From positions 1 to 30,117 of IMG/VR virus record IMGVR_UViG_3300033144_002943: 30,117 nucleotides of DNA. One strand, 5' to 3'. The position numbers and the translations under genes are program-made. Each line of letters begins with the position of its first letter. Within the stretch, counting starts at the first letter, position 1. The notes beneath the pieces were generated by a model. That model saw only the letters and a list, made by a program, of their open reading frames with translations. It made no database searches and had not been told where the DNA came from. Origin of the DNA: a virus. Below are positions 1-30,117 of the stretch, one piece after another.

Positions 1-375
1 TGGGCCTATATCAATACCCCCCGGGGTCGCCAGGTTATTAGCATTGGCGATTGGATAATTCAATATCCGGATGGATCTAAAGAATCGATGCCGGGACCAA
101 TTTTTAATCAGCGTTACGTTCCCCAGGATGGGGAGGCAAAATCTGAGGCGCAAGTTCTAGCTGATTCGATAGATGAATTCTCCAAGGCTCTGAAGGTATT
201 GGAGAAAACGGTCCAGGACGAAATCGAAGGTATGGGAAAACAGATTAAGGCTCTTGAGGTCATTGTTTTTAGCGTAAATAAAGATATTGCTGAAGAACCA
301 GATAAAGATACGGAAAGCCTCGTAAAGGACAAGAAAGCTAAGAAAAGCACGACAAAGGATGCAACACCAGACTAA
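1..375 (+). CDS. Phage protein of the 'PGDW-I' type, 5'-partial
   Basis: The reading frame is open from the first base, so the true start lies upstream; the ATG at 88 is internal. The N-terminal part contains ISIGDWIIQYPDG followed by PGPIFNQRY (about residues 14-39 of the visible part). This resembles a widespread small phage protein whose core reads PGDWIV-G-x-G-E-x-YPVK-x-x-x-F-x-x-TYE. After about residue 45 it becomes a charged, probably coiled-coil segment, and it ends in a Lys/Asp-rich tail. It overlaps the terminase gene by 17 bases, so the two are probably translationally coupled. The molecular function of this family is not known to me. I am confident that it is coding and moderately confident of the family resemblance. 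Confidence 0.75.
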   Translation, partial: WAYINTPRGRQVISIGDWIIQYPDGSKESMPGPIFNQRYVPQDGEAKSEAQVLADSIDEFSKALKVLEKTVQDEIEGMGKQIKALEVIVFSVNKDIAEEPDKDTESLVKDKKAKKSTTKDATPD

Positions 376-1813
376 AGAAATATATTTAGGTTACCGTGAC
401 GAATACGGTGAGCCATCGGTTCCGCTGCCCAAGCAGATGCTTGGCCACGCCAGTGTAGGTCCCTTCAAGGATACTTGCATTGCGGGATCTTTAGGTACCG
501 GTAAAACAGAGTGGCAGTGCCAGGAAATGATAACCCAGGCTGCCAGTTTCCCAAAAAATATGATATTAACCGGGAGAAAAGTTTTAGACGCCTTTAAGAA
601 ATCAACCCTCATTCAGCTGCTCGAGGCGGGTGGCGACTTCATTAAAGTACACAGACCCCAGGATCACGAAATTATAATGCTCAACGATTCGAAGATCGTG
701 TACCTGGCGCTCGATGACACTCGTGACGCTATTCAGCGTATCAAATCGATGAACTTAGGCGCCTTCTCATTCGACCAGTTGGAAGAAGTCCCGGAGGAAA
801 CGTATCGGGCAGCCAGAGGGCAGCTGCGCCGTAAAAATTCAGCGCTAGTGAATTTCCATACTTGCAATCCCGCCGGCCACGATTGGGTCTGGCGGAGGTT
901 CAAAAAGAATTTAAAAGACAATCACAAGTTAGGCCGGCAACTTATCGAAACAGTAACCTGGCCCAAGGGTATGGATCCCCCAACCAGTGACCTTGAGGTT
1001 CAGGCCCATTCCGATAACCCTTATCTTCCTTATGAGTATATTGTCGGCCTACTTGAGAACCCCACGCACTGGGTGAATCGCTATGTCCATTGCGAATGGG
1101 ACGATTTTGCCGGACTGGTTTATCCAATGTTCGATTATGAAAAGCATTTCATCAAGCCGTTTAATATTCCGGATTGGTGGGACCGCTATATTATTTACGA
1201 TTATGGTTATACCAATCCCACGGCAATTATGTTTGCAGCTGTAGATCCTAATGGTGTTATCTATGTATATGATCTGATCTATGTGAGCGAAATGATCATT
1301 CCTGAGATCTATCCAATGGTCCATCAGCGCACCAAGGGCCGCAATCATCTTTATAAATGGTATGCGGATCCATCGATCGTAAAAACTGAGCGTGACGGAT
1401 CTAACGTGGCGGACGAATGGGAAGACTATAGCATCTTCTGGGATATGGCAAAAAATGACAAGCGGGCCGGGTTTGAAAGGGTTGGAAAATATTTGCATTT
1501 GGATTCTACCAAAAAGGGTCCGCACGGTGTAATGGGCCGAGCCAAATTGTATTTCTTTGATATCCCCGCAATGCAACCGGTGTACGATGAGGTCTCGGAA
1601 TATAAATGGGCCGAATTAAAATATAATCATTCTACCAAAAATAAACCGGAGGAACCGGTTAAAAGGAAGGACCATACTTGTGACGATCTGAGGTACCTGG
1701 TCCACGCTGTTGAAGACGCATCTTCGAAACCCAAAAAGCCAATGGATGAATATGATATGAGTCGTTTTTATGAGAAGTCTGGCAAACGTAGAAATAAATT
1801 TATGAGCGTATGA
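359..1813 (+). CDS. terL: Terminase large subunit (DNA-packaging ATPase/nuclease)
   Basis: This is the motor that translocates phage DNA into the prohead through the portal and cuts the concatemer. The ATPase half has a Walker A motif, GSLGTGKT, at residues 43-50. A Walker B-like strand, GAFSFDQLEEV, lies around residues 134-144, with D139 and the E142/E143 pair as candidate catalytic acids. The C-terminal half looks like the RNase H-fold nuclease: YDYGYTNPTA carries the first acid, WYADPS the second, and DHTCDDLRYLVHAV near the C-terminus the third. At 484 residues it has normal length. The ATG at 359 lies inside the end of the preceding gene and leaves about 40 residues before Walker A, as is usual. 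The portal gene follows after one base, the classic packaging order. I saw no small-subunit gene in the window; the partial gene upstream is not an obvious one. Confidence 0.95.
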   Translation: MQHQTKEIYLGYRDEYGEPSVPLPKQMLGHASVGPFKDTCIAGSLGTGKTEWQCQEMITQAASFPKNMILTGRKVLDAFKKSTLIQLLEAGGDFIKVHRPQDHEIIMLNDSKIVYLALDDTRDAIQRIKSMNLGAFSFDQLEEVPEETYRAARGQLRRKNSALVNFHTCNPAGHDWVWRRFKKNLKDNHKLGRQLIETVTWPKGMDPPTSDLEVQAHSDNPYLPYEYIVGLLENPTHWVNRYVHCEWDDFAGLVYPMFDYEKHFIKPFNIPDWWDRYIIYDYGYTNPTAIMFAAVDPNGVIYVYDLIYVSEMIIPEIYPMVHQRTKGRNHLYKWYADPSIVKTERDGSNVADEWEDYSIFWDMAKNDKRAGFERVGKYLHLDSTKKGPHGVMGRAKLYFFDIPAMQPVYDEVSEYKWAELKYNHSTKNKPEEPVKRKDHTCDDLRYLVHAVEDASSKPKKPMDEYDMSRFYEKSGKRRNKFMSV

Positions 1814-1814
1814 T

Positions 1815-3710
1815 ATGAACGAAAGAGAACAATTAAAACATTACCGAGAAGAATACGAGGCGATGGAAAAGAATATGGGTGACTGGGTGGACTACTCGAT
1901 TGAGTCAGCCAAGTTTACTTCCGGGCATTTTGGTAAGGGGCAGTGGACCACTGAGCAGATCGATGAACTGGAAAAGGATGACCGGGCGCCTTTGCAGCTG
2001 CAGCTTATTTTACCAAAAGTTAATTTGATTACCGGCCTGGAGCGGCAGCAAAGATCGGGATGGGAGGCTACGGCCTTTGGCGTCGAGGATGAAGTCTGGC
2101 CGCAGTTGATGACACCCCTGATGATGCACCTGGATCGCAATAAATATTTACAGAATTTATTTTCCGGCGGATTTAAAAATACCGCTATGACCGGACTCGA
2201 TTGGATCGATCAATACATTATGGATGACTGGGATTATGGCAAACGCCTGGTCATTGAAAGGGAGTCCTGGAAAAATGTTAAGATCGATCACGAGGCCCGC
2301 ACTGACGACATCGACAAATGGGAAAGATTAGCCAGGCACAAATGGCTACCTTTCGATCGGGCAAAGATTATGTATCCAGATACGATTGGACAATTTAAAA
2401 ACATAGAACGATTTGCGGAGGCCGGGGGTGATATCGCCACTGACATTAAAGGCGAAAACAGTAAGGACTTCGGTGAATTCTATCACGATCACGATAAAGA
2501 AACCACTGATTATAATGTTCGTAATTATATCAATCTCCAAAAACAGGCGATCAACCTGATCGATATGTGGGAAAGGCACTGGGAGACACAATTCAGAATT
2601 GCCTATAACGATCCCGAGCAGGGGAGGATGAAACTCACTGATCAGTTCAAGACCCAGGGCGAGGCCAATGAGTTTAGAGATACCTTCGTCGAAACAGAAG
2701 GGATTGAGGACCGGGACCGGGTGGTTGTGATCAAGCGTCGTTTACACCATATCGAACACGGTGTGTTCTCCGGGAACGTGATGGCCGGTAAACCTAAAAA
2801 AGATGAATATAATCACAAACAATTCCCACTGACCCCGATCATTTATTATGCGATCGATAATGGCGAAGGCCTGGACATATTCGGCCTGGTGGAAAATTTA
2901 AAAGACCCACAGCGAGAGAAGAACAAGCGTAGATCCGTTGCTACTGATATGATCGGCCGCACACCCAAGGGTGGTGGTTTATTTAACAACCGTGGTGGCT
3001 TAACAGCTGAGAAGATCCAGAAGGCCAGTGAGTCCGGAACCTGGGAAGGGATCCCATTAAAACGTGGTGAGAAAGTCTCAGACCATATGCAGCAGTGGAG
3101 CCAGACCCATTTACAAATTCTGAATTACCTGGTGAATTATGAGCAGCTGTCAGCTGATGAGGCTAAAGAGATCTCCGGCGCCAATGACCCAATGTTAGGG
3201 ATCGCAGCCGGGGCCAAGGAGTCGGGTTTTGCGGCTAACACCAGGATCCGCCAAGGTATGTTGACCCTGGAAGAAGTATTCGAAAATTTGGATAGAGCAA
3301 AACGCAGAGTATTATCGCAAGCTGTTCAGAATATGCAGCAGTTTTATTCTTCAGATAAGATCATCAGGATCATAGGTGAGAGTATTAAGATCGGGCCACA
3401 GCCAAGTGAAAAACAAGTTACTCCGGATGAGATCAAGCAGTTCGTGGAGGCCTTTAAGTCTGAAGAAACATTAATGAAGTACGATATTATTTTAACCAAG
3501 ACCCAGTCGCCTACAATGAAGGCAATGAAGGCGCAGGAAGTCAAAGAATTAATCAGTCAGGCCCCAGGTTATGCGGGAGCATTATTACCGCTATTTGTGG
3601 AGAACTCTGATTATGAAAGTAAAGACCAGGTTCTGGAAGCTATTAAGAGCGTCCAGACTCAAGAGGGTCTTATCAAAGTTGCTCAAGCAATGAGCAAAAA
3701 TAAAAAGTAG
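1815..3710 (+). CDS. Portal protein, P22-like
   Basis: This protein forms the dodecameric ring at the capsid vertex through which DNA enters and leaves. Residues 57-92 hold the P22-type N-terminal signature: RAPLQLQLILPKVNLITGLE, then the short RQQRSGW stretch. Residues 127-190 (GLDWIDQYI, IERESWKNVKIDHEA, WERLARHKWLPFDRAKIMYPD) match the stretch of this family that describes substrate-like 'D-P-x-A' positions. Residues 465-512 (SGFAANTRIRQGMLTLEEVF, then NLDRAKRRVLSQAVQNM) resemble the helical stem and crown of P22-like portals. At 631 residues it is close to the P22 protein, which has about 725. It starts one base after the terminase stop and shows only a weak ribosome-binding site, so coupling is likely. 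No frameshift is visible. Confidence 0.88.
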   Translation: MNEREQLKHYREEYEAMEKNMGDWVDYSIESAKFTSGHFGKGQWTTEQIDELEKDDRAPLQLQLILPKVNLITGLERQQRSGWEATAFGVEDEVWPQLMTPLMMHLDRNKYLQNLFSGGFKNTAMTGLDWIDQYIMDDWDYGKRLVIERESWKNVKIDHEARTDDIDKWERLARHKWLPFDRAKIMYPDTIGQFKNIERFAEAGGDIATDIKGENSKDFGEFYHDHDKETTDYNVRNYINLQKQAINLIDMWERHWETQFRIAYNDPEQGRMKLTDQFKTQGEANEFRDTFVETEGIEDRDRVVVIKRRLHHIEHGVFSGNVMAGKPKKDEYNHKQFPLTPIIYYAIDNGEGLDIFGLVENLKDPQREKNKRRSVATDMIGRTPKGGGLFNNRGGLTAEKIQKASESGTWEGIPLKRGEKVSDHMQQWSQTHLQILNYLVNYEQLSADEAKEISGANDPMLGIAAGAKESGFAANTRIRQGMLTLEEVFENLDRAKRRVLSQAVQNMQQFYSSDKIIRIIGESIKIGPQPSEKQVTPDEIKQFVEAFKSEETLMKYDIILTKTQSPTMKAMKAQEVKELISQAPGYAGALLPLFVENSDYESKDQVLEAIKSVQTQEGLIKVAQAMSKNKK

Positions 3711-3720
3711 GAGTGAGAAT

Positions 3721-4437: not shown

Positions 4438-4478
4438 TTATTAACCAAATCTTCCCCCATTAGGGATAAGGAGTAATT

Positions 4479-5348
4479 ATGTTTTTAGAATTTGGTCCTG
4501 AGGACGAAGATCAGGATCTTATCATCGATGAGGACAAGGAATTAGACGGCAGTGCCGATGATGATGACGAGACCGGGATAGATGATCACCCGGACGACGA
4601 TGACGACGCCAAAGATTCCCCCGACGACAAAAAAGAAGACGATAAGGACGATGATGATTCATCTGATGATGATTCCGATGATAAATCGGATGATCCAGAT
4701 GACGATGAACCAGAGGCACCTTATGAGATCTTGGAGGACGGTCGGGTTATGGTTGGAAACCAGGTCTTTAAGAACTGGGGAACATTTGTTAATTCCCACA
4801 TTAACCTACGAACCGCTTACGGTAGACAAGGAACGGAACTTGGTAAAGCTAAAAAAGGTGAGTTGCCTGACGATGAGCAGGATGAACCGGATGCTAGTCA
4901 GGGTGAACTTGATTATGATCCTTGGGATCCTCAATCTGTTAAGAATTACATCAAGAATGAAATTGGTGGCGGCGTCAAAGTCGCAATGGCTGATGTATTC
5001 GCAGATATGAAAGATCGGGCAGCTATCAATCAGCTTAAACAAGACAACCCGAAAGTTACCGACGAACAATGGCAAGAGGTCGCAGACTTCGGAGACGATA
5101 GGGGTATCAGTGATTTTGAAGATGCTCTGAAACTGTGGCGCCGAGAAAAGGACCTCGCAGCGGCTGAAGACAGGGGGCGGAATAAACTGCTCAAGGAACT
5201 TGGTAAGGAGACCCCGGACAACGGAGGATCCGGAGCAGGTACAGGCAAAGACACTAAGACAGAGTATGATGATCTGTCAGACGCACAATGGGCCGCACTC
5301 CCTGAGAAAGAAAGAGAACAGGCGCTGAAGGAGGCTGAATCAGGTTAA
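4479..5348 (+). CDS. Putative capsid scaffolding protein, Asp-rich N-terminus
   Basis: Its position just before the decoration and major capsid genes, its high charge and its predicted helices fit a scaffold that guides prohead assembly and then leaves. Residues 5-75 are nearly all Asp/Glu/Ser/Lys. Residues 80-110 hold a small folded patch (PYEILEDGRVMVGNQVFKNW). The middle carries the YDPWDPQSVKNYIKNEI segment seen in many phage scaffolds. The C-terminal third is helical (ALKLWRREKDLAAAEDRGR, WAALPEKEREQALKEAE). Scaffold C-termini usually contact the capsid protein through basic helices; here it is mixed charge. The AAGGAG ribosome-binding site at 4468-4473 supports the ATG at 4479. Scaffolds diverge quickly, so the call rests mainly on synteny and composition. 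Confidence 0.72.
   Translation: MFLEFGPEDEDQDLIIDEDKELDGSADDDDETGIDDHPDDDDDAKDSPDDKKEDDKDDDDSSDDDSDDKSDDPDDDEPEAPYEILEDGRVMVGNQVFKNWGTFVNSHINLRTAYGRQGTELGKAKKGELPDDEQDEPDASQGELDYDPWDPQSVKNYIKNEIGGGVKVAMADVFADMKDRAAINQLKQDNPKVTDEQWQEVADFGDDRGISDFEDALKLWRREKDLAAAEDRGRNKLLKELGKETPDNGGSGAGTGKDTKTEYDDLSDAQWAALPEKEREQALKEAESG
4553..4710 (+). repeat. Degenerate GAY trinucleotide tract
   Basis: This stretch of the scaffold gene is an imperfect run of GAT/GAC triplets with some AAA/AAG and TCC/TCT codons, and it encodes the poly-Asp N-terminus. Mixed use of GAT and GAC breaks up perfect repeats. It also generates a long, meaningless open frame in the +1 register. Confidence 0.75.
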
Positions 5349-5367
5349 AATAACACGGAGATAAACA

Positions 5368-5811
5368 ATGGCCGATATTACTACTTCCGTAAAGGAAGCT
5401 AATATTGAGCGGCACGACGTTGGTCTCGGTACGTGGGTAGCAAAACTTATTACACCAGTTTCCGATAGTGTAGCAGCTACCGGAACCCACGAAGTTATAA
5501 CTCTTCCTGCAAATTGTTTTGTTGCCGGTGGATGGGTAGTTGTCAAAACGAAACTAACCTCTACAAGCAATAACGGTACTATGCAGTTTAAAGTTGGATC
5601 CGCCACTCTGGGGGCCGCTTTTACTGCTGATGGGACTGAACTTGACGCCAAAGATGTTATTCGCCTTGGTGCGAATGACTTTGATGGTACGGCAGGAAGT
5701 GCGTTATACGTTACCACAGCGGATACCATTGATATGGTAATCGCAACCAACGCTATTACCGCAGGTGCGTTTTATCTAATCGTGAACATAGTCGAACTCA
5801 TCGACGAATAA
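5368..5811 (+). CDS. Putative head decoration / virion surface protein
   Basis: A 147-residue, almost entirely beta-strand protein placed directly before the major capsid gene. This is the usual slot for a small decoration or head-stabilising protein. Alternating hydrophobic strands are visible, such as HEVITLPANCFVAGGWVVVK, TMQFKVGSATLGAAF and TIDMVIATNAITAGAFYLIV, which is consistent with a jelly-roll or beta-sandwich. There is no signal peptide and no enzymatic motif. Start ATG 5368 has a CGGAG ribosome-binding site and begins 19 bases after the scaffold stop. The role comes from position and fold impression only. A head fibre base or a minor capsid protein is also possible. Confidence 0.6.
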   Translation: MADITTSVKEANIERHDVGLGTWVAKLITPVSDSVAATGTHEVITLPANCFVAGGWVVVKTKLTSTSNNGTMQFKVGSATLGAAFTADGTELDAKDVIRLGANDFDGTAGSALYVTTADTIDMVIATNAITAGAFYLIVNIVELIDE

Positions 5812-5823
5812 GGAGGCAAATTT

Positions 5824-6840
5824 ATGCCAGACTCAGGATGGGCAAGCGGACTATATGTATCACGGTGGGCAAAACAACTGTGGTATGAAGCCGCCAAAGA
5901 AATCTACTTCAGTAGGTTTATGGGCGAAGGCCCAAATTTTATGATTTCAACAAAAAACGAACTGGCTGCACAGAAAGGTGATGATATTACTGTCGGATTG
6001 GTGACCAATCTAAGTGGAGACGGAGTTACAAATGATGATATGCTCGAAGGTAACGAAGAGAAGATGAACACCTACGATATGAACATCACCATCAACCAGA
6101 AACGGAATGCAGTACGCAACGAAGGAGACTTCGATGATAAACGTGTGCTGTACAGTTTCCGTAAAGAGGCCAAGGAACTCTTGAAAATCTGGTTGGCAGA
6201 GCATATCGATAGTGCAATGTTCACTGTTCTTGGAGCCAGTCCAACCCGCACATATCGTGCTGATAACGGTGGAGACTCAGTCAATACCAGGCTGAATGAG
6301 GCAACAACCGCTACGAACCTTGTAGCAGCTGATGTCAGCACACCCGCCGATATCTCTGCGATGAAAACCGCAGCTATGAAACCTAAGGGTGCGAATGAGT
6401 TGAAGATCCGACCAATTCGGTATGAAGGTAAGAACCATTATATCCTTCTGATCACGCCGGAGCAGGGATACGATCTGAAACGGAATTCAGAATGGTTGCA
6501 GGCGCAGCGTGAAGCCAATGTGCGTGGACGTAAAAACCCGATCTTTACCGGTGCTTTTGGGATGTTTGATGATGTTATCATTCACACCCACGAGAATGTC
6601 ACAGTGTCAGCCGAGTATGGATCCGGATCCGTATACGGTGCGCAAGCATTGTTTATGGGCGCCCAGGCCGGTGTTTTCGCCTCAGGCGGACGTCCACAGT
6701 GGGTGGAAAAGAAATTCGATTACGGTAACAAATTAGGTATCGCCGGTGGTCGTATTTATGGTGTGAAGAAATCAATTTTCAATTCCGAAGATTTCGGCAT
6801 CATAGCATACTATACTGCTTGCAGCCAGTTTGTTGGCTAA
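5824..6840 (+). CDS. Major capsid protein, N4-gp56 / DUF4043-like
   Basis: This protein builds the icosahedral shell (HK97-fold lineage). The opening, SRWAKQLWYEAAKEIYFSRF, is typical. Residues 49-110 carry the family signature: GDDITVGLVTNLSGDGVT, then LEGNEEKM around residue 74, then ITINQKRNAVRNEGDFDDKR. This matches the N4-gp56/DUF4043 pattern of 'G-D-x-V-T ... LEGNEE ... I-x-Q-x-R-x-A-V'. A later segment, HYILLITPEQGYDLKRNSEW, continues into GAFGMFDDVIIHTHENV, the usual P-domain/A-domain region. The length of 338 residues fits. A strong AAGGAGG site lies just upstream. An 86-base gap with stem-loops follows, the longest break so far in the operon. The family call rests on remembered motifs. 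Confidence 0.87.
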   Translation: MPDSGWASGLYVSRWAKQLWYEAAKEIYFSRFMGEGPNFMISTKNELAAQKGDDITVGLVTNLSGDGVTNDDMLEGNEEKMNTYDMNITINQKRNAVRNEGDFDDKRVLYSFRKEAKELLKIWLAEHIDSAMFTVLGASPTRTYRADNGGDSVNTRLNEATTATNLVAADVSTPADISAMKTAAMKPKGANELKIRPIRYEGKNHYILLITPEQGYDLKRNSEWLQAQREANVRGRKNPIFTGAFGMFDDVIIHTHENVTVSAEYGSGSVYGAQALFMGAQAGVFASGGRPQWVEKKFDYGNKLGIAGGRIYGVKKSIFNSEDFGIIAYYTACSQFVG

Positions 6841-6850
6841 TCATTTTTCT

Positions 6851-6908: not shown

Positions 6909-6926
6909 ACAGTGTGAGAGGTAAAT

Positions 6927-7847
6927 ATGGCTACTTTGGAGCAGCAAGTAGAAGATTTCATCGGTGAAGATGTTGCCGGCGACGATATCATTTATACCAC
7001 GGATATGTTAGACCAGTGGCTGAATGATGCCGCCAACTATATAATTTCCCGAATGCCGTTTAAATTGCTGCATTTATTTTCAGCTGAATCAGCTGAGAAG
7101 ACCTCAGATGGCTATGCTTTTGAAGGTGCCATTGCCGGGGTGTTGAGGGAACACGATAGCGACGATAATGGTAGTGGGGACACCTGGATCCCGGCCGATC
7201 CGATTCATAATTCATTTAGGATACAGGCCGCAGCACTGGCTACCGCAACCAGGCCCAAGTATTATGTGGCCAATGGTCTTGTTTATGTGTTACCTACCCC
7301 CGGTGCGGATCCGAATGCCTTTAAGGTTTTAGAATGTGTGCAGAATGCGATCGACGCATCGTCTGATTCTACTATTTCCAACTTCCCGAATGTATTGGAG
7401 CCGGCGGTGGTTATATATGGCGCTATGGCTATTAAACTCAGGGAAATGGCTTATGTCAGGCGCATTGCCCAGGACAAGTTTGAGGCCATAAAAGTAGATT
7501 ATAGTGGCGATGTCGGAATCCAGGCCAAGCTGACAGCTGCTTGGGATGTTCTGCAGAACAGTAAACCAACCGCCACAACGGATGCCTACAATGTATTGGG
7601 TGTAGATGAAGATCCGGTACGTGCCAGGGTAACCTTGGAGTTGGCTAAGCGGGCAATGGAGATTGGCCTAGCGGAGGCAGGATTTTATAACAAGGACGAT
7701 GAAAATAATTTGAAAGCTATGGAGGGTTTATTTGCCCAGGGCAACAAAGCGCTCCAGGAATATCGTGATTTAAAAACAGAATTTGAAACAAAAATACAAG
7801 CATTCGTAGGAGGAAAGATTGCCTCACCGGAAATCATTGCGCAGTAA
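6927..7847 (+). CDS. Putative head-tail adaptor / virion structural protein
   Basis: A 306-residue protein directly after the capsid gene. The order of segments resembles large adaptor proteins of marine podoviruses. It opens with a helical start (LDQWLNDAANYIISRMP, residues 27-43). A middle strand region follows, with RPKYYVANGLVYVLPTPGAD. Next come the NFPNVLEPAVVIYGAMAIK helix and a long C-terminal helical part ending in ALQEYRDLKTEFETKIQAF. 'YYVANGLVYVLPTP' is the type of segment in which adaptors describe a G-x-I-x-L-x-P-x-P hairpin before the helix that docks on the portal. The start uses a GAGAGG ribosome-binding site. Its last 29 bases overlap the next gene, whose ribosome-binding site lies inside this coding sequence. 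The exact neck position is uncertain. Confidence 0.6.
   Translation: MATLEQQVEDFIGEDVAGDDIIYTTDMLDQWLNDAANYIISRMPFKLLHLFSAESAEKTSDGYAFEGAIAGVLREHDSDDNGSGDTWIPADPIHNSFRIQAAALATATRPKYYVANGLVYVLPTPGADPNAFKVLECVQNAIDASSDSTISNFPNVLEPAVVIYGAMAIKLREMAYVRRIAQDKFEAIKVDYSGDVGIQAKLTAAWDVLQNSKPTATTDAYNVLGVDEDPVRARVTLELAKRAMEIGLAEAGFYNKDDENNLKAMEGLFAQGNKALQEYRDLKTEFETKIQAFVGGKIASPEIIAQ
7807..7821 (+). promoter_or_regulatory. Ribosome-binding site fixing a TTG start
   Basis: TAGGAGGAA at 7807-7815 lies five bases before a TTG at 7819, inside the end of the preceding gene. It is among the best ribosome-binding sequences in the window. The next in-frame ATG is 56 codons downstream with no such site, so the TTG is the likely start. 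Confidence 0.75.
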
Positions 7848-9822: not shown

Positions 9823-9835
9823 TTAGGAGAATTAT

Positions 9836-10743: not shown

Positions 10744-11138
10744 TGGGAACAACGCAATTAGGTGAAAATAGATTTCTCTCCAGGTTAGGGAACTTCGCAC
10801 CCGGCCTGGTGACTTTTTTCTCTGCTTTGGACCAGGAAGGTTTCCAGATATTTAAGAATGTTAATAATCTTAAACGGGGCCAGGTTGACAAGGTCAAGGG
10901 CCAGGGGAATAAGTCCACCACCCAAAACGTGGATAACTATACCAATGTCGAAGGCCAGGGGTTCTTCACGTATAGATCTGAGAAAAACCAGAGTGACGCA
11001 TCTGTTTCTACCTTCTGGTGGTTAACCTATCTAAAGGTTAGCGCAGCTTTCAAGATCCTACGCTGCAGTGCTGATAGTACCGGTTTATGGGGGGAGATCA
11101 TAGCGCAAGGTGGCGCCTTATGGCCAGGGACCGCTTAA
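10743..11138 (+). CDS. N-terminal portion of tail/stabilisation protein, separate frame
   Basis: A 131-residue product starting in a TAATG overlap. It begins ENRFLSRLGNFAPGLVTFFS and contains ALDQEGFQIFKNVNNLKRGQ, TYRSEKNQSDASVSTFWWLT and AFKILRCSADSTGLWGEII. It reads like the first part of a larger beta-rich tail protein, not like a complete small protein. The downstream 806-residue frame lacks such an N-terminus and begins within this gene, shifted by one base. The two may be one ancestral protein separated by a frame change (programmed, mutational or a sequence error), or a genuine two-gene arrangement. There are no catalytic or membrane features. Confidence 0.6.
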   Translation: MGTTQLGENRFLSRLGNFAPGLVTFFSALDQEGFQIFKNVNNLKRGQVDKVKGQGNKSTTQNVDNYTNVEGQGFFTYRSEKNQSDASVSTFWWLTYLKVSAAFKILRCSADSTGLWGEIIAQGGALWPGTA

Positions 11139-21400: not shown

Positions 21401-22668
21401 CCCCAATGGTTGCATTAGCAGCTGACCTAGGTTTAGGATCTCAAAAATATAAACAAGCATCCAGGACCTTCCGGGGAATGGGTGGCGAACTGGCCACAAT
21501 TATGGGTCGAGACAGAGCAAGATCTAAAAAGGGATATAAAGAATTATTGGCCAGATCTAAAGGGTGGAAAGGGAAGACCGTCCACTCAGTCCTTCATCCG
21601 GTGGATGCGCTCCGGACCCTATTCCAACTTCCGGAATTGGCACCCAGAATTGCAGAGTTTAAAACACGCCTAGAACATTATGAAAAGAAATACGGTAAAG
21701 ACTCAGACGATGCCCGCCTAGCAGCTTTCAACGACGCCCAGGATGTGACGATTAATTTCAGCAGAATGGGCGTCTGGGGATCCATTCTTAATCAGCTGAT
21801 CCCATTTTATAATCCGGACGTACAGGGTGGATCTAAGATCTTAAGATCCTTCCAGGAGCGACCCCTGGCCACAATGTTGCGGGGCGTGTCAGCGATTACA
21901 TTCCCAACCTTTATGGCCTACTGGATGAACAAAGACAAAGAATGGTTCAAGAACATTCCCGCTCCAATGAAATATTCACACATATATATAGATCTGGCGG
22001 ATATTCCCTGGGCCGATAGCAAGGAAGTAATAGTTCTTCCGCTGCCGCACGAACCTGGTGTTATTTTTGGAGGCCTACCAATGGCTATGTGGGACGAATT
22101 GTACCAGGGTAAAGATAAGGCCTTTATGGAGGCTGCGCAGCTGATGTTCAACCAGGTTAATCCAATTCCTAACCCATTGAATGTGTCCGGAGTAAACGTC
22201 CTTTATCAAATGTTCGCTAATAGAAACTGGTATGGTGCGCCAATTGAAAGTTTGGGAGATCAATTTAAAGAGGCTCCTGACAGATACCACGATTATACCA
22301 CTGAAGTGGCCAAGGCAGCCAGTCAATGGAGTTATGATGCGCTGCAGTACACGGGACAATGGTTGCCTGGTGCGGGTGAACTGGCCAATCAAATGTCACC
22401 CAAGAAAATTGAGAACTTTATGGGCGGCTTGACCGGTGGTTTAGCTACCAGGATGATGCGCCTTATGGATCTTGCATTGAAAGATGATCCGATTAAGAGT
22501 AAAGCAGATCTGCCCACGGTTGGAAGACTGTTCCATCGCAAGCGACTGGGTGTCACGGTTGATTATAAGCGGATGCGACAATTACAAAGAAAGCGTGGCA
22601 GTAAAAATATGACCGCATCTGAAAGGAATGAACTGAAAAGATTAGAGAAGAGAGCAAGGAGGAGATAA
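15442..22668 (+). CDS. Giant polyvalent internal virion protein (2408 residues)
   Basis: Probably packaged in the capsid and injected with the DNA. Residues 7-13 and 28-34 repeat a P-x-GY-x-LD motif. Residues 85-192 (NRHNNPGAHVW, DFAAKYTGEAPD) resemble lysozyme-like 'NNPGN' peptidoglycan hydrolases of virions. Residues 413-592 are Gly/Ala-rich and hydrophobic, as in channel-forming ejection proteins. Residues 1049-1321 look like a TIM-barrel, Gp88-like domain with C1063, C1087, C1092 and the cluster C1294, C1295, C1300, C1303, C1307, then H1321. H1430-E-I-A-H1434 with E1469/E1473 (SEGFAEF) is a zincin metallopeptidase signature. From about 1680 to 2133, AHLSDAEY, NPFYLPLKRL, ITNPVRD and INFSRMGVWGSILNQLIPFY resemble large-polyvalent-protein-associated (LPD38-like) regions. 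I saw no RNA-polymerase motifs. Family names are from memory; the HExxH and cysteine positions are seen directly. Confidence 0.82.
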   Translation: MSDPIPPKGYVLDEPDSTKLDLGSLRVPTGYALDDTAAARLFLENMQMNPSKKKEPEIMQGPDQLRTIRPDTTLTDTMKPVYETVLQFEVGDDPNSRANRHNNPGAHVWTPELADKYGAKRGDPFEDSSGSTYYTAKYDSMAQGTKASKFIIDRIWDQTDGNPLDFAAKYTGEAPDSQIVANYAQEIQSKIDNVGTIDTPGLIVEPKDSGFSKKMTVSGREGRFNFNIPPKEQRTTEGGHTNWYRFEAEDGSNWNHRIEEDKQGGRWEEDPLADQEYLEWQKDPQGIYDHWEHDSNLTAYIVESAESGVPWSEFKEGLKGFNTYRQESGDLIPDDVPPDPRINSVLNGPQESLGDILSKDYSKESYDFDDKIPLFLRLGWNESITGAARKMITGEEAYDLSEEDPNALEGIAATIFGFMMPLDALTFGVGGKIGAKLYNWGLNKTVGILSKFGISRKAAVKLATAGSQKFVARLGGAGVGLGSYQGIHNAMTQKAEGKEVDWWEVSKAGLHGFFLGSVAAMGGTLGGLITKKLFGKGLSTLGNRFFGEQFGTKAAKAIGDLGGEVVSFGTLAGAIEGRMPTWDDYLGAAGVIMGMRGVNLGKAGFRKFSKEMENRALSMKNLVEAKNHSFRQAMDRSGTSYIEWAADRVVEKTLGVDLRGKSGVREAIEGKDVTDQIRKPKLIKTKEGVFSEKPKTPAEIEQGKPAKPPKPTKIKTVRGPGEKGEDVLARGVRRGITDPGTEGIGRYLLKSNPKLAKKIFLEISDRTVEITDEYIRKNHNMTPEEFFKAEGKRPGRYMSVGQTKNFVKNGIEKTALKLYKGHDADTIVEEFYGAHWRNLNKKSQKMFERFHNKSRDTRSSQEHYEQDGRDFFFSEKMHQKAGMGIRSIFQNARGTLRDLIGRIRKIRGAKVPKEVQKLWKSAVKVEKQPTSTSRQKPRGRAAPSKGIPDKGRVPEQISIFKDATHQLRRTSKNVSKNRYKDETKIFEVSIHPKELADIKDKNSKVKINNLKDAETANTNKERVKDWKKIHSTAKDIPPAKMRKAPIKVGKLVGVEVLMLTKGCQRAETTVERVQNGVLPKETRTEACFGGDCWVNKQFNSKFGAFENMEVRDLEIASEASISKLLGNPKMIDKLNKALFIRQGFAGDDSHLFSTGRAVHYLKEAKANGLIPKTIFISASYAPVTSKQYKAMAEYKDKFEIHFSNSGWFHKNEIMIRLNEFQKAKAAGLNVSIRMITNKDGISGITMDNQRFIAKELEKMGVKQAEVLETPFHDDSIANKELRRSNPTGDYKYICCEFGKCGPCKYKCMTTVDKDASIQVTHQLRDMDPEAKVGKERGQVDPYGTDVSAIRQASVPASDAEFVEAKPSVEVKVSRKKPLSQQEIVQFVRKAFNAPVFGKSTVKMGKVQGYFKPFQRYIRLREEYNTYVLSHEIAHLIDQDVWKGDKQRFKPWQDELSVLDYNPNKGRTSEGFAEFMRHYVTTGRAEFLAPKFYKYFTTTFAKENPKLWKNIEKFRDMMSEYHNQGAYNRILSQIDFSGEGPKRPLGTRIRDYYQLLRHRFYSDVTYIDRVLRQSGVKKKIRKGKWESTLPSTKDPEALFVAKKGKASGMARQWVFEGTTDFVGRENGESLNAILKDVVKLEGVLDPLNPGKTVKGTKLMQAFIGYTFSRRALSRPDIETGAHLSDAEYIFKLMDTKGFRSASDRLNGWMDRVLDYMIDAGALPAEGKAAMKALNPFYLPLKRLMTDPFITNPKGGGGSGSGTYLPTSGIKRLRGSGRKVVNPLESMVGIAENLISVADKTRLVRAIADLEHTQGLGMIIRRIPAPTKVTNVNTQRILDSLGEQMMGRLDKMGDKDKMRMLMNTTKELAKEMAPDYLQYFSQSDRYVGSGNVIVLWRNTAVEVKTSEGIKRKMEMRPHFYEIDDGVYRVLQGIDRVQMGPVISAISHVTRGIKFGAVGFHLAFSYITNPVRDIPTYLLFSKAKLPNPAAPMVALAADLGLGSQKYKQASRTFRGMGGELATIMGRDRARSKKGYKELLARSKGWKGKTVHSVLHPVDALRTLFQLPELAPRIAEFKTRLEHYEKKYGKDSDDARLAAFNDAQDVTINFSRMGVWGSILNQLIPFYNPDVQGGSKILRSFQERPLATMLRGVSAITFPTFMAYWMNKDKEWFKNIPAPMKYSHIYIDLADIPWADSKEVIVLPLPHEPGVIFGGLPMAMWDELYQGKDKAFMEAAQLMFNQVNPIPNPLNVSGVNVLYQMFANRNWYGAPIESLGDQFKEAPDRYHDYTTEVAKAASQWSYDALQYTGQWLPGAGELANQMSPKKIENFMGGLTGGLATRMMRLMDLALKDDPIKSKADLPTVGRLFHRKRLGVTVDYKRMRQLQRKRGSKNMTASERNELKRLEKRARRR

Positions 22669-23657: not shown

Positions 23658-23658
23658 T

Positions 23659-24117: not shown

Positions 24118-24128
24118 GAGAGGAAACA

Positions 24129-25442
24129 ATGAAAAAACTAATACTGTTCATAATGATCTTGTCAGTCGGATTGATGGCACAATCGGTTGGTGGCGCAGGT
24201 AGCGCTAATCAAACAACTCATCCAGGGGATGTGCTTATCAACGGTAAGATCATTCTGGAAAACATAGATGAGTTTACCGAAGAGGATAGTCCTGCTGTTG
24301 GTGATTCTGTACTGGTGTGGGACGTTACTGCTGATGCCTTAGTGCGGGTATCAATAGATAAGGTTCTTGATTTAGCCGGTGTAGCTGCCTTTGAAATAGA
24401 TCAGCTTACAGAAGAGACCACTCCTGTACTTACTGATACTATAGCTATGTGGGATGTTACAGCGGATGCTCATAGACGAGTTGAGTTTGAGGATATGTTT
24501 AGTATGATGGTTGGTGGAGAGGGACTGAGTTACACAAGAGCGTCGGCTACTTTCGATTTAGATTTTGATAATCTAGCAGAGGATACTCCTGTTGCAACAG
24601 ACTCAATGGCGTTTTGGGACATAACCGCAGACGCTCATAAACTTATGGTAGTAGCTGATTTAAGTGTAGATGGTGTTGTAATAACAGGTGGAGAGGGAAT
24701 AAGTAATACTGCGGGTACCGTAGATTTAGATTTTGATAATCTAGGTGAGGTTGCTATTGCAGCTACAGACAGTATAGCATTTTGGGATATTACTGGCGAT
24801 GTTCACGGTAGAGCAGTGGCTCAAGATGTGGCTGATTTATTTTCTCCAACTCCCTATACTGGCGGTGAGGGAATAAGTGTAGATGCGTTTGTTATTAATA
24901 TGGACATTGATAATCTCGCTACCGATAATCCGGCAATCGCAAGTGATAGTCTTCTGTTTTGGGATGCTTCTGAAGCTGAACACGCTGTTGAAGACATAAC
25001 AACCATACTAGCATTAATGACACACGATCAAGCTGAAACAATACTTGACAATGAGGATTTTGAGTTGGGTACTGGTGACTTTGCAGCGACTGAAATAACA
25101 GTTGGTACGATATTCACACTTGAGCCAAACTCAGGATCAACGACTCCTGCTGTCTATGCGAATGATGCCTCAATAGCATCAACCAGTTCTATAATGAGGA
25201 TTGGAGGCGATGGTGCTCCAGTTATACTGGATGCTGATACTGCAATAGATGATGGCGCTTATGATGGCCAGATTCTAATATTACACGGAGCCGATGATAC
25301 CAATACACTAACGCTATTTGATGGAGTGAATACTAGCTTACAGGGCGGTGTTAATTTCACTTTTGGCGACAAAGATCAAATGCTTTTGCAGTGGGATGAT
25401 GATGATTCCAACTGGCAGGAAATATCAAGAGCCGATAACTAG
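24129..25442 (+). CDS. Exported repeat protein, five WD-type fibre repeats
   Basis: A 437-residue protein. The signal peptide spans residues 1-17 (GLMA|QSVGG). Five repeats follow, centred on the VLVWD, IAMWD, MAFWD, IAFWD and LLFWD strands at residues 61-65, 105-109, 160-164, 216-220 and 275-279. Each has the form 'I/F-D-x-L-x-E-x-x-P-A-x-x-DS-x-x-x-WD-x-T-A-D'. The last three also share a leading GGEG(L/I)S and form a longer unit of 56-59 residues. Similar 'D-x-x-L-x-Y-D-A-S' repeats are known in phage fibres. Residues 320-437 form a terminal beta domain shared with the protein at 23659. A fibre or surface-binding role is inferred. A true export signal is unexpected for a virion part. Confidence 0.72.
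   Translation: MKKLILFIMILSVGLMAQSVGGAGSANQTTHPGDVLINGKIILENIDEFTEEDSPAVGDSVLVWDVTADALVRVSIDKVLDLAGVAAFEIDQLTEETTPVLTDTIAMWDVTADAHRRVEFEDMFSMMVGGEGLSYTRASATFDLDFDNLAEDTPVATDSMAFWDITADAHKLMVVADLSVDGVVITGGEGISNTAGTVDLDFDNLGEVAIAATDSIAFWDITGDVHGRAVAQDVADLFSPTPYTGGEGISVDAFVINMDIDNLATDNPAIASDSLLFWDASEAEHAVEDITTILALMTHDQAETILDNEDFELGTGDFAATEITVGTIFTLEPNSGSTTPAVYANDASIASTSSIMRIGGDGAPVILDADTAIDDGAYDGQILILHGADDTNTLTLFDGVNTSLQGGVNFTFGDKDQMLLQWDDDDSNWQEISRADN
24277..25019 (+). repeat. Internal repeat array coding the WD-type units
   Basis: Diverged tandem coding repeats of about 130-180 bases. The clearest DNA copy is a 22-base identical block at 24555-24576 and 24723-24744, 168 bases (56 codons) apart, encoding DLDFDNL. 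Other copies are recognisable only at protein level. The first two units recur in the next gene at about 25560-25760. Confidence 0.75.
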
Positions 25443-25451
25443 GAGTAAAGT

Positions 25452-26585: not shown

Positions 26586-27770
26586 ATGAGAAAAATTTTA
26601 TTCATATTATTGTTAATTAGCGTTGCTTGGACACAGGTTATTCAGTATGGTGTACATCACGAGGATGTAAACAGTAGTGCTAGACAAAGCATTACTTTAA
26701 GAGGGGTTGGATGTGATGTTGGCGATTTAATGATAGTGGTTATTACTAAAGATGATGATCACGTTGTTGCTGAAAAGACTACATCAGATTGGATAGAAAT
26801 GACAAGTTCAACCTCTGGTACAGGAAATGCTTTTTATACTGCATATAGGGTGTTTGAAAGTGGCGATATCGAGTGGGACTGGGAATCTCCTGATGATACA
26901 AATGAGGATTGGGCAGGTTGGTTGTTAAGGTTTAGTGGAAATGACACTACTAATCCAATTCACGCCTCCGAAGATTCAGTAGCGACAAGTGATGCCCCTG
27001 AAGCCCCTGATGTTGCTTATACTAATTTAACGGCAGGAAGTATAGTTATAAGAGCTTTTGGTGCTGATGATGACGACACACCTTATACAATGCCTGCTGA
27101 TGCATTTGAAATATTTAATAACGATGCTGGTGATACGGGTGGTGCAGGTGGAATAGAACTCGTGGTTGTAGATCAAAATACTTCTTCCTCTGGTTCGATT
27201 GCGTTTTCTGCTACTAAAACTGGAATGGCACAGTCTTTTACTGGTAATGGTAAGGATTTAACTCAAGCCAAATGGTTTTTAGACCAAGTTAATAGTCCAA
27301 CTGGGGATATAGTGTGTAAACTATATTCACATACTGGTACTTATGGTACAAGTTCTGAACCAAATGCATTATTAGCAACATCTGAAACTCTTAGCCTTGC
27401 TGATATGCCCGATCCTGCTGGTGTTCAGGCATTTAATTTCCCAACTCCATATACATTAGCAAATGGAGTATATTATTGTATTGCTCTTGAAACCTCAGAT
27501 TGTGATGGCACGGATTACCTAAGTGTTTATCGTCGAACTACAACATCACACGATGGAAATGCCGCTGATTATGATAGTGGCAGTTGGTCTCCGTCTAGTA
27601 CGGAAGATAAAAGATTCTATGTTATGTCTAGCAATATTTCTGGTACAGACAATACAGGAACATCAGTATTTGGAATGGGTGGTAGTGAACAATGGGTAGC
27701 GGCAACTATTATTATAGAAGCAGAAGCAGGAGCACCACCATCAAGAAGTAGAGTTCACGTTATTCAATAA
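26586..27770 (+). CDS. Exported two-domain beta protein
   Basis: A 394-residue protein starting right after the previous stop. The signal peptide covers residues 1-16 (VAWT|QVIQ). Residues 30-210 make one beta domain (GDLMIVVITKDDDHVV, FYTAYRVFESGDIEWDWE, AGWLLRFSG, GSIVIRAFGADDDDTPYTMP). Residues 214-346 look like a jelly roll (AQSFTGNGKDLTQAKWFLDQ, PTGDIVCKLYSHTGTYG, ANGVYYCIALET) of a kind used for sugar or surface contact. The last 48 residues (SVFGMGGSEQWVAATIIIEA) look like the final strands of the first domain, so the jelly roll may be inserted within it. It ends SRSRVHVIQ. The DNA is rather A/T-rich. I infer a host-contact role; no exact family. Confidence 0.65.
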   Translation: MRKILFILLLISVAWTQVIQYGVHHEDVNSSARQSITLRGVGCDVGDLMIVVITKDDDHVVAEKTTSDWIEMTSSTSGTGNAFYTAYRVFESGDIEWDWESPDDTNEDWAGWLLRFSGNDTTNPIHASEDSVATSDAPEAPDVAYTNLTAGSIVIRAFGADDDDTPYTMPADAFEIFNNDAGDTGGAGGIELVVVDQNTSSSGSIAFSATKTGMAQSFTGNGKDLTQAKWFLDQVNSPTGDIVCKLYSHTGTYGTSSEPNALLATSETLSLADMPDPAGVQAFNFPTPYTLANGVYYCIALETSDCDGTDYLSVYRRTTTSHDGNAADYDSGSWSPSSTEDKRFYVMSSNISGTDNTGTSVFGMGGSEQWVAATIIIEAEAGAPPSRSRVHVIQ

Positions 27771-27784
27771 AAAGTGAGAGCAAT

Positions 27785-28183
27785 ATGAAAAAAATAATGA
27801 CAATAGTTTTAATAATAGTTGGTATTGGATATTCGCAAATGGCAAAGCCTATACCACCAGACCTAGACCACGTTAAAGTGCTGACAATAACACTTAGAAA
27901 GATGGTTAGTTTTAGTACAGTAGTGGTTGGAATAGACACAACGGTTATTGCGCCTGGTGATACTGTCTTTACGGATATTACAGCGCCAGATACAACATTT
28001 AAATACCATTTAAGAACTGAGGTGGCTTATGGAGATACTAACAACATTCAGCCAGATTGGGGCATTATCAATAAAAGTTCAAAATTGGTAGATTCAGATA
28101 TATATAATACGGCTGAAAAAACAGATTTTTATGATGCAATAGAAAGGAAATGGACTCAAGCAACAAATTTGTTAATACCATAA
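27785..28183 (+). CDS. Exported small protein of unknown function
   Basis: A 132-residue protein with a signal peptide of about 17 residues (IVGIGYS|QMAK). The mature part starts KPIPPDLDHVKVLTITLRKM, then Thr/Asp-rich strands with TTVIAPGDTVFTD, and a C-terminal helix (TDFYDAIERKWTQATN). I do not recognise it. It shares the Gln-after-cleavage rule and compact spacing with its neighbours, so it belongs to the same exported cassette. The ribosome-binding site is GTGAGAG, weak. Confidence 0.6.
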   Translation: MKKIMTIVLIIVGIGYSQMAKPIPPDLDHVKVLTITLRKMVSFSTVVVGIDTTVIAPGDTVFTDITAPDTTFKYHLRTEVAYGDTNNIQPDWGIINKSSKLVDSDIYNTAEKTDFYDAIERKWTQATNLLIP

Positions 28184-28195
28184 CCAGGAGGAATA

Positions 28196-28456: not shown

Positions 28457-28458
28457 AG

Positions 28459-28650: not shown

Positions 28651-28663
28651 ATAAGGAGAAGTA

Positions 28664-29089
28664 ATGAAGTTCTTAAAACTGATATTGATAACCTTAATGG
28701 TGTCGTGCTTTGTCTTTGGACAGAGTTTCACCACGTACACGGCAGCGCCACCTGGCGCAGATTCGGTGATGACGCTGAAAACCTCGTGGGGTACACTGTA
28801 CTCCGTATATGGGACAAGTCTTGATGTTCAAAATCTATACTTGCTTATGTATGACGATTACGAAGATTCTGTTGATACGGAATCGGAGGATCCGAAGTTG
28901 GTTTTCGTTTTGACCCCAGGCGATACAAACGCAGATGGTGACCAGTTCTACGGTACGCCAATAAGCGAGTATTATCCGGAAGGTGTTGTATTTGAAACGG
29001 CAATGTCTTTTGTGATTACTGATTCAGTAGCCGCCGACTCCACGACAACTGCAGGTGCAGGAATAATCTTAAACTTTTTGTACAAATAG
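28664..29089 (+). CDS. Exported small beta protein within the lysis region
   Basis: A 141-residue protein. The N-terminus is a signal peptide (about residues 1-19, CFVFG|QSFT). A cysteine at residue 15 is preceded by MVS, so lipoprotein processing is a weaker alternative. The mature part contains SWGTLYSVYGTSLDVQNLYL, then MYDDYEDS, then LVFVLTPGDTNADG, then PEGVVFETAMSFVITDS, and ends ILNFLYK. This order (a strand, a 'LYD' turn, a Pro-led loop, 'P-x-G-x-x-F-x-x-x-x-S-x-x-x-T', a final 'L-Y-K') resembles a small phage head or tail domain of unknown function. AAGGAGAA supports the start. Confidence 0.62.
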   Translation: MKFLKLILITLMVSCFVFGQSFTTYTAAPPGADSVMTLKTSWGTLYSVYGTSLDVQNLYLLMYDDYEDSVDTESEDPKLVFVLTPGDTNADGDQFYGTPISEYYPEGVVFETAMSFVITDSVAADSTTTAGAGIILNFLYK

Positions 29090-29098
29090 GGAAAGACA

Positions 29099-29392
29099 AT
29101 GCCAAATGGAAATGGAATAGAGTTAAAAAAGATAGCACCGTACATAAGGTTCGTTGTAATCATATTCGCTATGGCGGGCGCCTGGTTTTCATTGCAAGCA
29201 AGAGTGGACAGCAATGAGGTGTCCGTTGATTCGTTGAAACTAAATCAAAAGCAGATTAGTGAAGATGTACATAAAGTTAAAACCGACGTAGCGGTCACAA
29301 AAAACGATGTGGAGCATATTAAGGTTGAACAGATCTCACAAAGGGCGTTATTGGACGAAATTCTACGTGAAGTAAAAGCCAACGGCGATTGA
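29099..29392 (+). CDS. Membrane-anchored coiled-coil protein (spanin- or holin-like)
   Basis: A 97-residue protein: a short polar start, one membrane segment (about residues 15-33, YIRFVVIIFAMAGAWFSL), then a heptad-rich coiled coil to the end (SLKLNQKQISEDVHKVKTDV and following). Its position just before endolysin and its overlap with it (the stop TGA at 29390-29392 lies within TTGA) mark it as part of the lysis unit. The topology fits an inner-membrane spanin or a small accessory holin. No lipoprotein partner is nested in it, so the spanin reading is weak. Confidence 0.6.
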   Translation: MPNGNGIELKKIAPYIRFVVIIFAMAGAWFSLQARVDSNEVSVDSLKLNQKQISEDVHKVKTDVAVTKNDVEHIKVEQISQRALLDEILREVKANGD

Positions 29393-29772
29393 ACGTCCGA
29401 GAGAATATTACTTTAAAGGAGGCAAGCTGCCCCCATTGTGGACAGCTGCCTTCTGATAAGTGGCTAGACTGGCTCCAGGATCTGCGTGAGGCCTGCGGGT
29501 TTCCCCTACCCTTTAAATCGATTCATCGATGTAATATATACAATGAGGAAATCGGCGGATCTGATGAGTCCCTACATACCCAGTTTACCAAATGGTCTTA
29601 TGGCGCAGCTGATATTGGGATTGCGGACCCGACTAAGCGTCTAAAAATTATTCGCACGGCCATTAAATTAGGAACTAATAACCTGGAGGTTTGCGATTTC
29701 CATTTGCATATTGGCCGAGCGCCGGTTGAGCATCCACAATACAATAAGTTGTACTGGGGAAAATCTAAATGA
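29389..29772 (+). CDS. Endolysin, M15-type peptidase (D-Ala-D-Ala carboxypeptidase fold)
   Basis: This enzyme cuts the peptide part of peptidoglycan at the end of infection. Three zinc ligands of the M15 family can be placed: H63 in SLHTQ, D75 in GAADIGI, and H107 (or H105) in FHLHIG. The SIHRCNIYNEEIGGS segment corresponds to the 'S-x-x-R-x-x-x-N-x-x-x-G-G' signature, and the N-terminal CPHCG (C14, C17) to the 'E-F-x-C-x-x-C-G' start. At 127 residues it is a single catalytic domain with no cell-wall binding part, as usual for phages of diderm hosts. The start is a TTG overlapping the previous stop (TTGA); there is no good ribosome-binding site, so coupled re-initiation is likely. No later start would keep the CPHCG segment. 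Confidence 0.85.
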   Translation: MNVRENITLKEASCPHCGQLPSDKWLDWLQDLREACGFPLPFKSIHRCNIYNEEIGGSDESLHTQFTKWSYGAADIGIADPTKRLKIIRTAIKLGTNNLEVCDFHLHIGRAPVEHPQYNKLYWGKSK

Positions 29773-29960
29773 CTTGATTTTGAGCCTTAATTCTGGCTAC
29801 TATTCAGTACCAAAAAAGGAGTCGATATGGTCTTTTTGTGTTTTATAATTTCAAGATTTCATTCCCGCCACACCCTCTATTTAATAAAGATCTACGACTT
29901 CTTTGTTTCTATAAGGGTCCCTGGCGGGATCATTTTAATCAACCCAAAAAGGAGTCCACA
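29773..29960 (+). promoter_or_regulatory. Intergenic gap at the late/early module boundary
   Basis: The longest gene-poor stretch in the window. It holds a TATAAT at 29844-29849 without a convincing -35 box. An 8-base inverted repeat pairs TCCCGCCA (29863-29870) with TGGCGGGA (29922-29929). It also has two similar translation leaders (AAAAAAGGAGTCGATATG and AAAAAGGAGTCCACAATG). No clear intrinsic terminator is visible after the endolysin; an imperfect AAAAAAGG/TCTTTTTG pairing around 29810-29837 is too weak to call. A promoter for the next gene is plausible but not shown. Confidence 0.35.
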
Positions 29961-29985
29961 ATGGAACTCACCTTACACGAACTAA
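29827..29985 (+). CDS. Possible 52-residue hydrophobic peptide
   Basis: An ATG at 29827 follows AAAAAAGGAG at proper distance and opens a 52-codon frame starting MVFLCFIISRFHSRHTLYLI, which ends inside the next gene in another frame. The ribosome-binding site is good, but the sequence has no family signs and runs through the inverted repeat. It may be a leader peptide, or noise in a regulatory region. Confidence 0.25.
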   Translation: MVFLCFIISRFHSRHTLYLIKIYDFFVSIRVPGGIILINPKRSPQWNSPYTN

Positions 29986-30117
29986 GCGCACAAATGAAGG
30001 CAGTTATGGATCTAATCCACGACACTTCAATTGAGGACGAGGCGCTTACCGATACCTTAAACGCCCTTGAGTTAACAATCCAAGAAAAGGGTGTAAACAT
30101 CGCCAAGGTCTGCGAAT
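29961..30117 (+). CDS. Gp157-family protein, 3'-partial
   Basis: The frame starts at an ATG preceded by AAAAAGGAG and runs off the window after 52 codons. The visible sequence begins MELTLHELSAQMKAVMDLI and contains ALTDTLNALELTIQEKGVNI then AKV. The spacing 'A-L-x-D-T-L-x-A-L-E-x-x-x-x-x-K-x-x-x-x-AKV' is the hallmark of the phage Gp157 family (first named from a Streptococcus phage), a small coiled-coil protein usually found among recombination and replication genes. This suggests the start of the next module. Its exact role is unknown to me. Confidence 0.8.
   Translation, partial: MELTLHELSAQMKAVMDLIHDTSIEDEALTDTLNALELTIQEKGVNIAKVCE

Follow-up and report, generated by a model that had tools for sequence, protein, structure and literature searches.

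Loss of CATG, CGCG and asymmetric five-base words from a 30-kb tailed-phage fragment: probable escape from restriction-modification of several specificities

We analysed a viral stretch of 30,117 bases, the whole of IMG/VR record IMGVR_UViG_3300033144_002943 (hereafter the window), which is a structural-gene fragment making up probably about half of a tailed-phage genome. CATG and CGCG are absent from the window, the asymmetric words CCAGC and AGCYC are nearly absent, and GAAGC and ACGGG are about four-fold down. We attribute this pattern, with a probability of roughly 0.85, to site loss under host restriction-modification (R-M) of several specificities. The phage lineage would have long infected bacteria carrying R-M systems of several specificities, in which unmodified phage DNA with a target would be cut at entry and variants that had lost the site would survive, leaving a genome purged of those words. 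We infer R-M as the agent, as well as the nature of the host, and the identities of the enzymes are deduced from the missing words themselves.

A direct count returned no CATG in the 30,117 bases, in agreement with the preliminary description of this DNA. Base composition predicts 112 copies and a maximum-order Markov model 73.6. The gene set used for codon-aware expectations lies entirely on the + strand and covers 29,410 of the 30,117 bases; shuffling synonymous codons across genes (400 runs) gave an expectation of 75.3 with a minimum of 55, and shuffling them within each gene (300 runs) gave 69.4 with a minimum of 53. Every Markov or codon-aware null thus expects about 69–75 copies, and neither several CATG sites nor a codon-aware expectation near zero, the outcomes that would have spoken against the claim, was found. 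The loss is independent of reading frame (coding CATG observed/expected 0/21.0, 0/11.7 and 0/41.8 in the three codon frames), and the one-letter neighbours AATG, GATG, TATG, CCTG, CGTG and CTTG are not low, standing at 1.0–1.25 of expectation. The choice of histidine codon follows the same rule: before G, CAC is used 47 times and CAT never, while before A, C or T there are 37 CAC and 67 CAT (Fisher p = 3e-16). The examples of CAC before G pointed out previously, at positions 2289, 2484, 2490 and 19729, are all in frame.

CGCG, which the preliminary description does not mention, is also completely missing, with 56.9 copies expected from the Markov model, 52.7 from the global codon shuffle and 49.8 from the within-gene shuffle; no run of either shuffle (400 global, 300 within-gene) had fewer than 28 copies. 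Several asymmetric five-base words are depleted as well. CCAGC occurs twice (54.7 expected by codon shuffle, 69.8 by Markov), AGCCC twice (32.8 and 22.3), AGCTC four times (about 37.0 and 24.3), ACGGG eight times (about 30.9 and 29.9) and GAAGC 14 times (about 57 and 36.0), the losses of the last two being weaker, at about four-fold. The degenerate-motif scan singled out CCAGC and AGCYC, and AGCYC in total is found six times against 70 expected. Avoidance of these words spans codon frames and both strands.

The avoided words are sharply bounded, which we take as the mark of sequence-specific enzymes. For CCAGC, AGCCC, GAAGC and ACGGG we tested the words one letter away, and all except AGCTC and ACGCG reach at least 0.65 of the expected count. 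All 15 neighbours of CCAGC are at or above 0.65 of expectation, the lowest being CGAGC (14/21.6). AGCAC (31/35.8) and AGCGC (33/28.5) occur at normal levels, in contrast to the almost missing AGCCC and AGCTC, and the motif is therefore read as AGCYC. The neighbours of GAAGC and ACGGG are at 0.74 of expectation or higher except for ACGCG (0/23.6), which is low because it holds CGCG. Rusinov et al. (2018) regard a site as eliminated when its bias falls under 0.1 and more than 15 copies are expected; applied here to codon-shuffle expectations, that threshold is passed by CATG (0/75), CGCG (0/53), CCAGC (2/55) and AGCCC (2/33), and missed by AGCTC taken singly (4/37, 0.11) and by GAAGC and ACGGG (about 0.25).

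Gapped motifs were scanned with four or five set bases in spans of up to eight, together with three-N-three patterns with gaps of 1–9. The lowest scores belonged to patterns that contain CATG or CGCG or that largely overlap the motifs named above, and milder deficits were seen for CGNGNNA (72/127) and ANGNGNNA (140/204). GDGCHC, picked after the scan and thus tentative, occurs twice against 28.5 expected when its six members are summed. The six-base palindromes AAGCTT and AACGTT are each at 0/7.0, which is weak among about 55 tested.

The strongest evidence comes from relatives, which were collected by head protein, initially two, then nine, then the best 80 of 263 loci; CATG was counted over full records where these were at hand, overlapping contigs included. 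Of the relatives found, 28 are at 53–62% head identity, and 21 of these have no CATG at all (0 in 169,427 bases against 436 expected). The records of L027 and L030 hold a single CATG each (101.7 and 60.6 expected; records of 23–40 kb), L033 (6/31.8), L034 (16/55.3) and L037 (4/24.3) are depleted, and L001 (18/22.8) and L002 (18/21.3) are near normal. At 95% identity over at least 1 kb, the 28 relatives form nine DNA clusters besides the window. In seven of the nine no record has more than one CATG, and two retain it (L001/L002; L033, L034 and L037). Beyond these, CATG persists in every one of the 52 loci L039–L090 (46–50% head identity), at 0.40–0.94 of expectation. Loss of CATG is therefore a trait of several sister lineages and not of the whole family. 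Since more than one related lineage shows it, the pressure on CATG is probably older than that on the other words, or more widely shared.

A head-protein tree was built from the window and 45 loci (the 28 at 53–62% identity, 14 of the 52 loci L039–L090, and L012–L014); L015, at 27% identity, was left out and L115–L117 lay outside the analysis. On it the seven CATG-poor clusters are distributed over four groups, not counting the window. Parsimony requires three changes between CATG-zero and CATG-present, with L027 and L030 scored as zero from their loci in spite of the one copy in each full record; the placement of the window and of L001/L002 is unsettled, the direction of change is not told, and tree support is insufficient to give the number of origins of the loss. 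Seven CATG words in the head and portal genes of L001 have a different word at the homologous position in the window: a CAT-to-CAC difference in a histidine codon accounts for three, and the others involve amino-acid differences, as would be expected at 48–62% identity.

The set of avoided words differs from lineage to lineage. Taking strong avoidance as less than 0.15 of at least nine expected, the window strongly avoids four words (CATG, CGCG, CCAGC and AGCCC) and is not extreme in its family by this number. CATG is the sole such word in the lineages of L018, L027 and L035; L010 avoids CATG, ACAGC and CCTGC, and L034 avoids GGCC, CTAG, GCGC, CCAGG and GCAGC. Among the genome records, the words are ACGT, CCGG, CCAGC and AGCCC in G013; CCGG, CGCG and GCGC in G014; GGCC, CTAG, CCGG, GGACC and CGCCG in G015; ACGT, CCGC, CCAGC and GGACC in G016; and CCGG, GGCC, GACGC and GGACC in G017. 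None of the nearer relatives examined has the window's combination of CATG, CGCG and five-base words, and the distant G013 shares CCAGC and AGCCC with it. The large sister group L039–L090 has a shared pattern of its own: 51 of the 52 loci lack CCGG (the expected number often being small), and ACGT, CCAGC or GGACC are avoided by several members as well.

These results bear on the earlier proposal of selection against a CATG-cutting system of NlaIII-type specificity. Strong selection against an activity aimed at CATG is well supported by the total loss in all frames, by the normal neighbours and by the recurrence of the loss in several, though not all, related lineages. The suggested specificity agrees with CATG as a target, with the qualification that CATG is just one of about six.

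The relative G001, a record of 39.6 kb, extends the comparison beyond structural genes. It holds one CATG against 102 expected, its non-structural half included. The lone copy, at record position 19219, lies within an open reading frame (ORF) starting at 18430; the continuation of this ORF carries a Peptidase_S74 (endosialidase chaperone) domain at its end, as in tail-fibre proteins. An integrase (L092, the G001 locus, 4608–5555) and an S24-type repressor are present, and G001 is therefore temperate by gene content. The same locus encodes a predicted C5-cytosine methyltransferase (10908–11750), an N6/N4 methyltransferase (12603–13376) and a sub-threshold match to an ArdA-like protein (17621–17992), suggesting several anti-restriction strategies side by side, which would complement site loss and are counted in favour of the R-M account. 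Beside the integrase, L092 4480–4503 resembles the 3′ end of a tRNA or transfer-messenger RNA (tmRNA; the tmRNA match is weak, at 10.9 bits and E = 0.23) and is possibly an attP core.

The avoidance is not uniform along the window. From position 1 to 26585, per-segment and per-gene counts show a stretch nearly free of CCAGC, AGCCC and AGCTC, with GAAGC and ACGGG strongly reduced. A total of 30 avoided five-base sites remain in the window, and eight of them lie in the gene at 26586–27770 (+ strand), where 10.3 are expected, against 22 in the rest of the window, where about 199 are expected. Eight sites within 750 bp were matched in one of 5000 simulations. This gene encodes a 394-amino-acid protein with no family match, is GC-poor (39%), and sits 3′ of a giant gene with an LPD38 domain and 5′ of the endolysin gene. 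Its near-background count of these words is read as recent acquisition, and it is probably a recent arrival from a phage under different pressure. The view of the preliminary description that the mosaic segments have long been in this background is not supported for this gene, which retains 8 of 10.3 sites. CATG and CGCG together are at 0/2.8 in the gene by within-gene shuffle, which alone is not significant, and at 0/6.6 in the stretch 26586–28195 by global shuffle, which would be; the donor may already have been free of both, or these two words may have been cleared first. The gene at 7819–9822 (+ strand; 667 amino acids, GC 0.41) is intermediate and partly purged, with four five-base sites against 11.6 expected, and one site also persists in each of a few small genes where about one is expected.

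Among the alternatives, the one that survives best is pressure from bacteriophage exclusion (BREX)-like, Type III or Type IIG systems, at least on the asymmetric five-base words; it is compatible with R-M acting on CATG and CGCG, and we consider it possible yet rather doubtful. CCAGC, AGCYC, GAAGC and ACGGG are all asymmetric, and relatives lose ACAGC, CCTGC, GGACC and GCAGC likewise, while CATG and CGCG have the palindromic form typical of orthodox Type II systems. Remaining GAAGC sites number 12 on the + strand and two on the − strand (about 41 to 17 predicted by shuffles) and remaining ACGGG sites seven and one (about 22 to 8), a strand skew not clearly beyond the shuffle prediction. The survey of Rusinov et al. 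(PMC6286503), in its results on enzyme types, also speaks against this alternative, with avoidance not observed for Type IIG and very rare for Type III.

A further possibility is that the phage makes its own CATG (and CGCG) nuclease to shred host DNA, its site-free genome being immune. Chlorella viruses produce a CATG endonuclease, and a loss that runs across the non-structural half of G001 as well (1/102) would suit such a role. However, in G001, the one long CATG-poor record examined for genes, the proteins scanned, which represent part of its ORFs and in several cases gave no match, include no recognised sequence-specific endonuclease; the nucleases among them are a member of the PD-(D/E)XK exonuclease family and a RusA resolvase. 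A search of 20 relatives' records for HNH_3 gave 0/20 (controls positive in 3/14), and lineage-specific sets of several motifs would require several nucleases. We regard this explanation as improbable.

Still less probable is a mutational process, such as deamination of methylated C within the motifs, that erased the words. TGCG/CGCA, the C-to-T product of CGCG, is indeed at 1.41 times expectation, but TATG/CATA, the corresponding product of CATG, is at just 1.09, and the replacement words of CATG are spread (CCTG 1.24, CGTG 1.25, CTTG 1.14). The 47-to-0 use of CAC before G is a T-to-C difference, the reverse of deamination, and counts of exactly zero call for purging rather than bias.

Composition, codon usage or codon-pair preference could matter in a window that is nearly all coding, and by codon shuffle CGAG (75/117) and AGAG (140/192) do deviate moderately. 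Single-codon usage is nonetheless refuted by the shuffles, every one of which kept at least 53 CATG and 28 CGCG; with CATG lost in all three frames and the tested neighbours mostly near or above expectation, it is highly unlikely that such preferences alone removed the two words. A library or assembly artefact, in which digestion with a CATG cutter shaped the contigs, has a negligible chance even for an IMG/VR record of unknown preparation: digestion would leave fragments of a few hundred bases and not a site-free 30 kb, several unrelated words are lost as well, and CATG is lost across many other IMG sample numbers while other contigs of the same family keep it.

Several observations weigh against site loss under host R-M. 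The relatives nearest to the window by head protein, L001 and L002 (62%), keep CATG, so that the pressure is not group-wide. One of the six neighbours of CGCG is low, CTCG/CGAG being at 0.64 of expectation. Rusinov et al., in the part of their survey on phage lifestyle, report that temperate phages eliminate sites less often (PMC6286503), and asymmetric five-base words together with a temperate G001 fit that survey poorly if the words are Type IIG or Type III sites. Over-represented words are left uncovered: by codon shuffle CCAGG/CCTGG stands at 149/60, GATC at 216/149 and GGCC at 134/85. These excesses are smaller by Markov (149/91, 216/183 and 134/119), and the Markov comparison in the CATG-free relatives puts GGCC under expectation and GATC close to expectation or under it. 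Finally, genome, domain and attP-like searches found neither a host nor a CATG- or CGCG-specific enzyme. The attP-like sequence of G001 had no exact match in 289 genomes of the class of G023 (Rhodovarius) and none with one mismatch allowed in 185 genomes of the class of G312 (Pseudomonas), and PF05315 (ICEA) was matched in 0/3 genomes, the controls likewise being without a match.

The genome scan gave six distant head homologues, on a Flavobacteriaceae and a Bacteroidales contig from metagenome-assembled genomes and in four proteobacterial genomes. A Shine-Dalgarno-like motif precedes 11 of 22 ORFs in the window, 0/7 in the Flavobacteriaceae contig and 2/4 in the Bacteroidales contig, and Flavobacteriaceae were set aside as the window's host type on the first two of these figures. 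Many of the IMG sample numbers are presumably marine.

The window's recognisable genes, all on the + strand, are those of a tailed phage. They encode the terminase large subunit (359–1813; phrog_2, E = 1.4e-27), the portal protein (1815–3710; phrog_156, E = 4.9e-64), the major head protein that served as the query for relatives (5824–6840; phrog_334, E = 2.3e-71), a head-tail adaptor-like protein (6927–7847; PF24175 SU10_adaptor, 36.4 bits, cut-off 27), a 2408-amino-acid protein with an LPD38 domain (15442–22668; PF18857, E = 4.5e-25; phrog_9854, of unknown function), which is probably a virion protein, and an endolysin-like peptidase (29389–29772; phrog_894; PF08291 Peptidase_M15_3). A sub-threshold match to the phage depolymerase C-terminal domain PF25692 (20.8 bits, cut-off 25) lies at 24129–25442, and a tRNA search of the window found none. 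Identity to named phages is low, at 21.8–25.5% for the portal (best 20 of 34 records), 32.0–34.5% for the head (best 30 of 66) and 23.0–26.3% for the terminase (best 30 of 130). Burkholderia phage BcepIL02, of the Bcep22/Lessievirus-like podophages, has a portal 22% and a head 33% identical to those of the window, and among the terminase matches listed the phages are other than Bcep22/Lessievirus-like; judged by these proteins, the window appears too distant from that group for membership. Bases 1–25000 had no near DNA match in phage records, and scans of viral contigs with the terminase, portal, 2408- and 394-amino-acid proteins, which reach close relatives only, found no relative.

Site elimination is a known strategy; less usual here are the asymmetry of some motifs and the fact that a temperate relative has lost sites almost totally. 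In the survey of Rusinov et al. elimination is complete or almost so in about one tenth of viral genomes (PMC6286503), and the window resembles these as a piece of a double-stranded DNA phage genome from which short recognition-type words have almost completely gone. That work ties avoided sites to host-encoded enzymes and uses a compositional bias, whereas here the words stand alone, several are asymmetric, the relative G001 is temperate and the expectation models differ. Several members of the HF1 group of haloviruses share absent CTAG and GATC, one also lacking AGCT, which was read as host-driven purging (PMC7230728); these are archaeal viruses, CATG is reduced to 0.24–0.44 and not absent, and non-palindromic motifs are not a focus of that work. 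A marine methylome study (PMC9516812) describes methylation of CGCG, CATG and other motifs in prokaryotes or viruses of the sea and reports that GANTC density is biased in some clades of pelagiphages. It concerns methylation, its CATG motif is in Phycodnaviridae, and its motif results describe no CATG- or CGCG-less phage lineage; two further papers (PMC9229481, PMC12570018), in their relevant sections, have no bearing on CATG-free phages. A literature search, with most subscription journals outside it, found no report of a phage lineage that lacks CATG as well as CGCG.

It is possible, though less likely than not, that the asymmetric words lost here and in relatives are Type III, Type IIG or BREX-like targets driving near-total loss, and that each phage genome is a layered record of the defences met by its ancestors, with still unpurged genes marking recent arrivals. 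If so, such systems would drive site loss, contrary to the enzyme-type results of the survey (PMC6286503), and were the words Type III or Type IIG sites, the rarity of elimination reported for these types and for temperate phages would be called into question. Apart from this reading, the set of missing words is a fingerprint of the defences faced by a phage lineage, readable without the host; it predicts enzymes of the host range and could help to link uncultured phages to their hosts through methylomes, and islands not yet purged reveal recently acquired genes.

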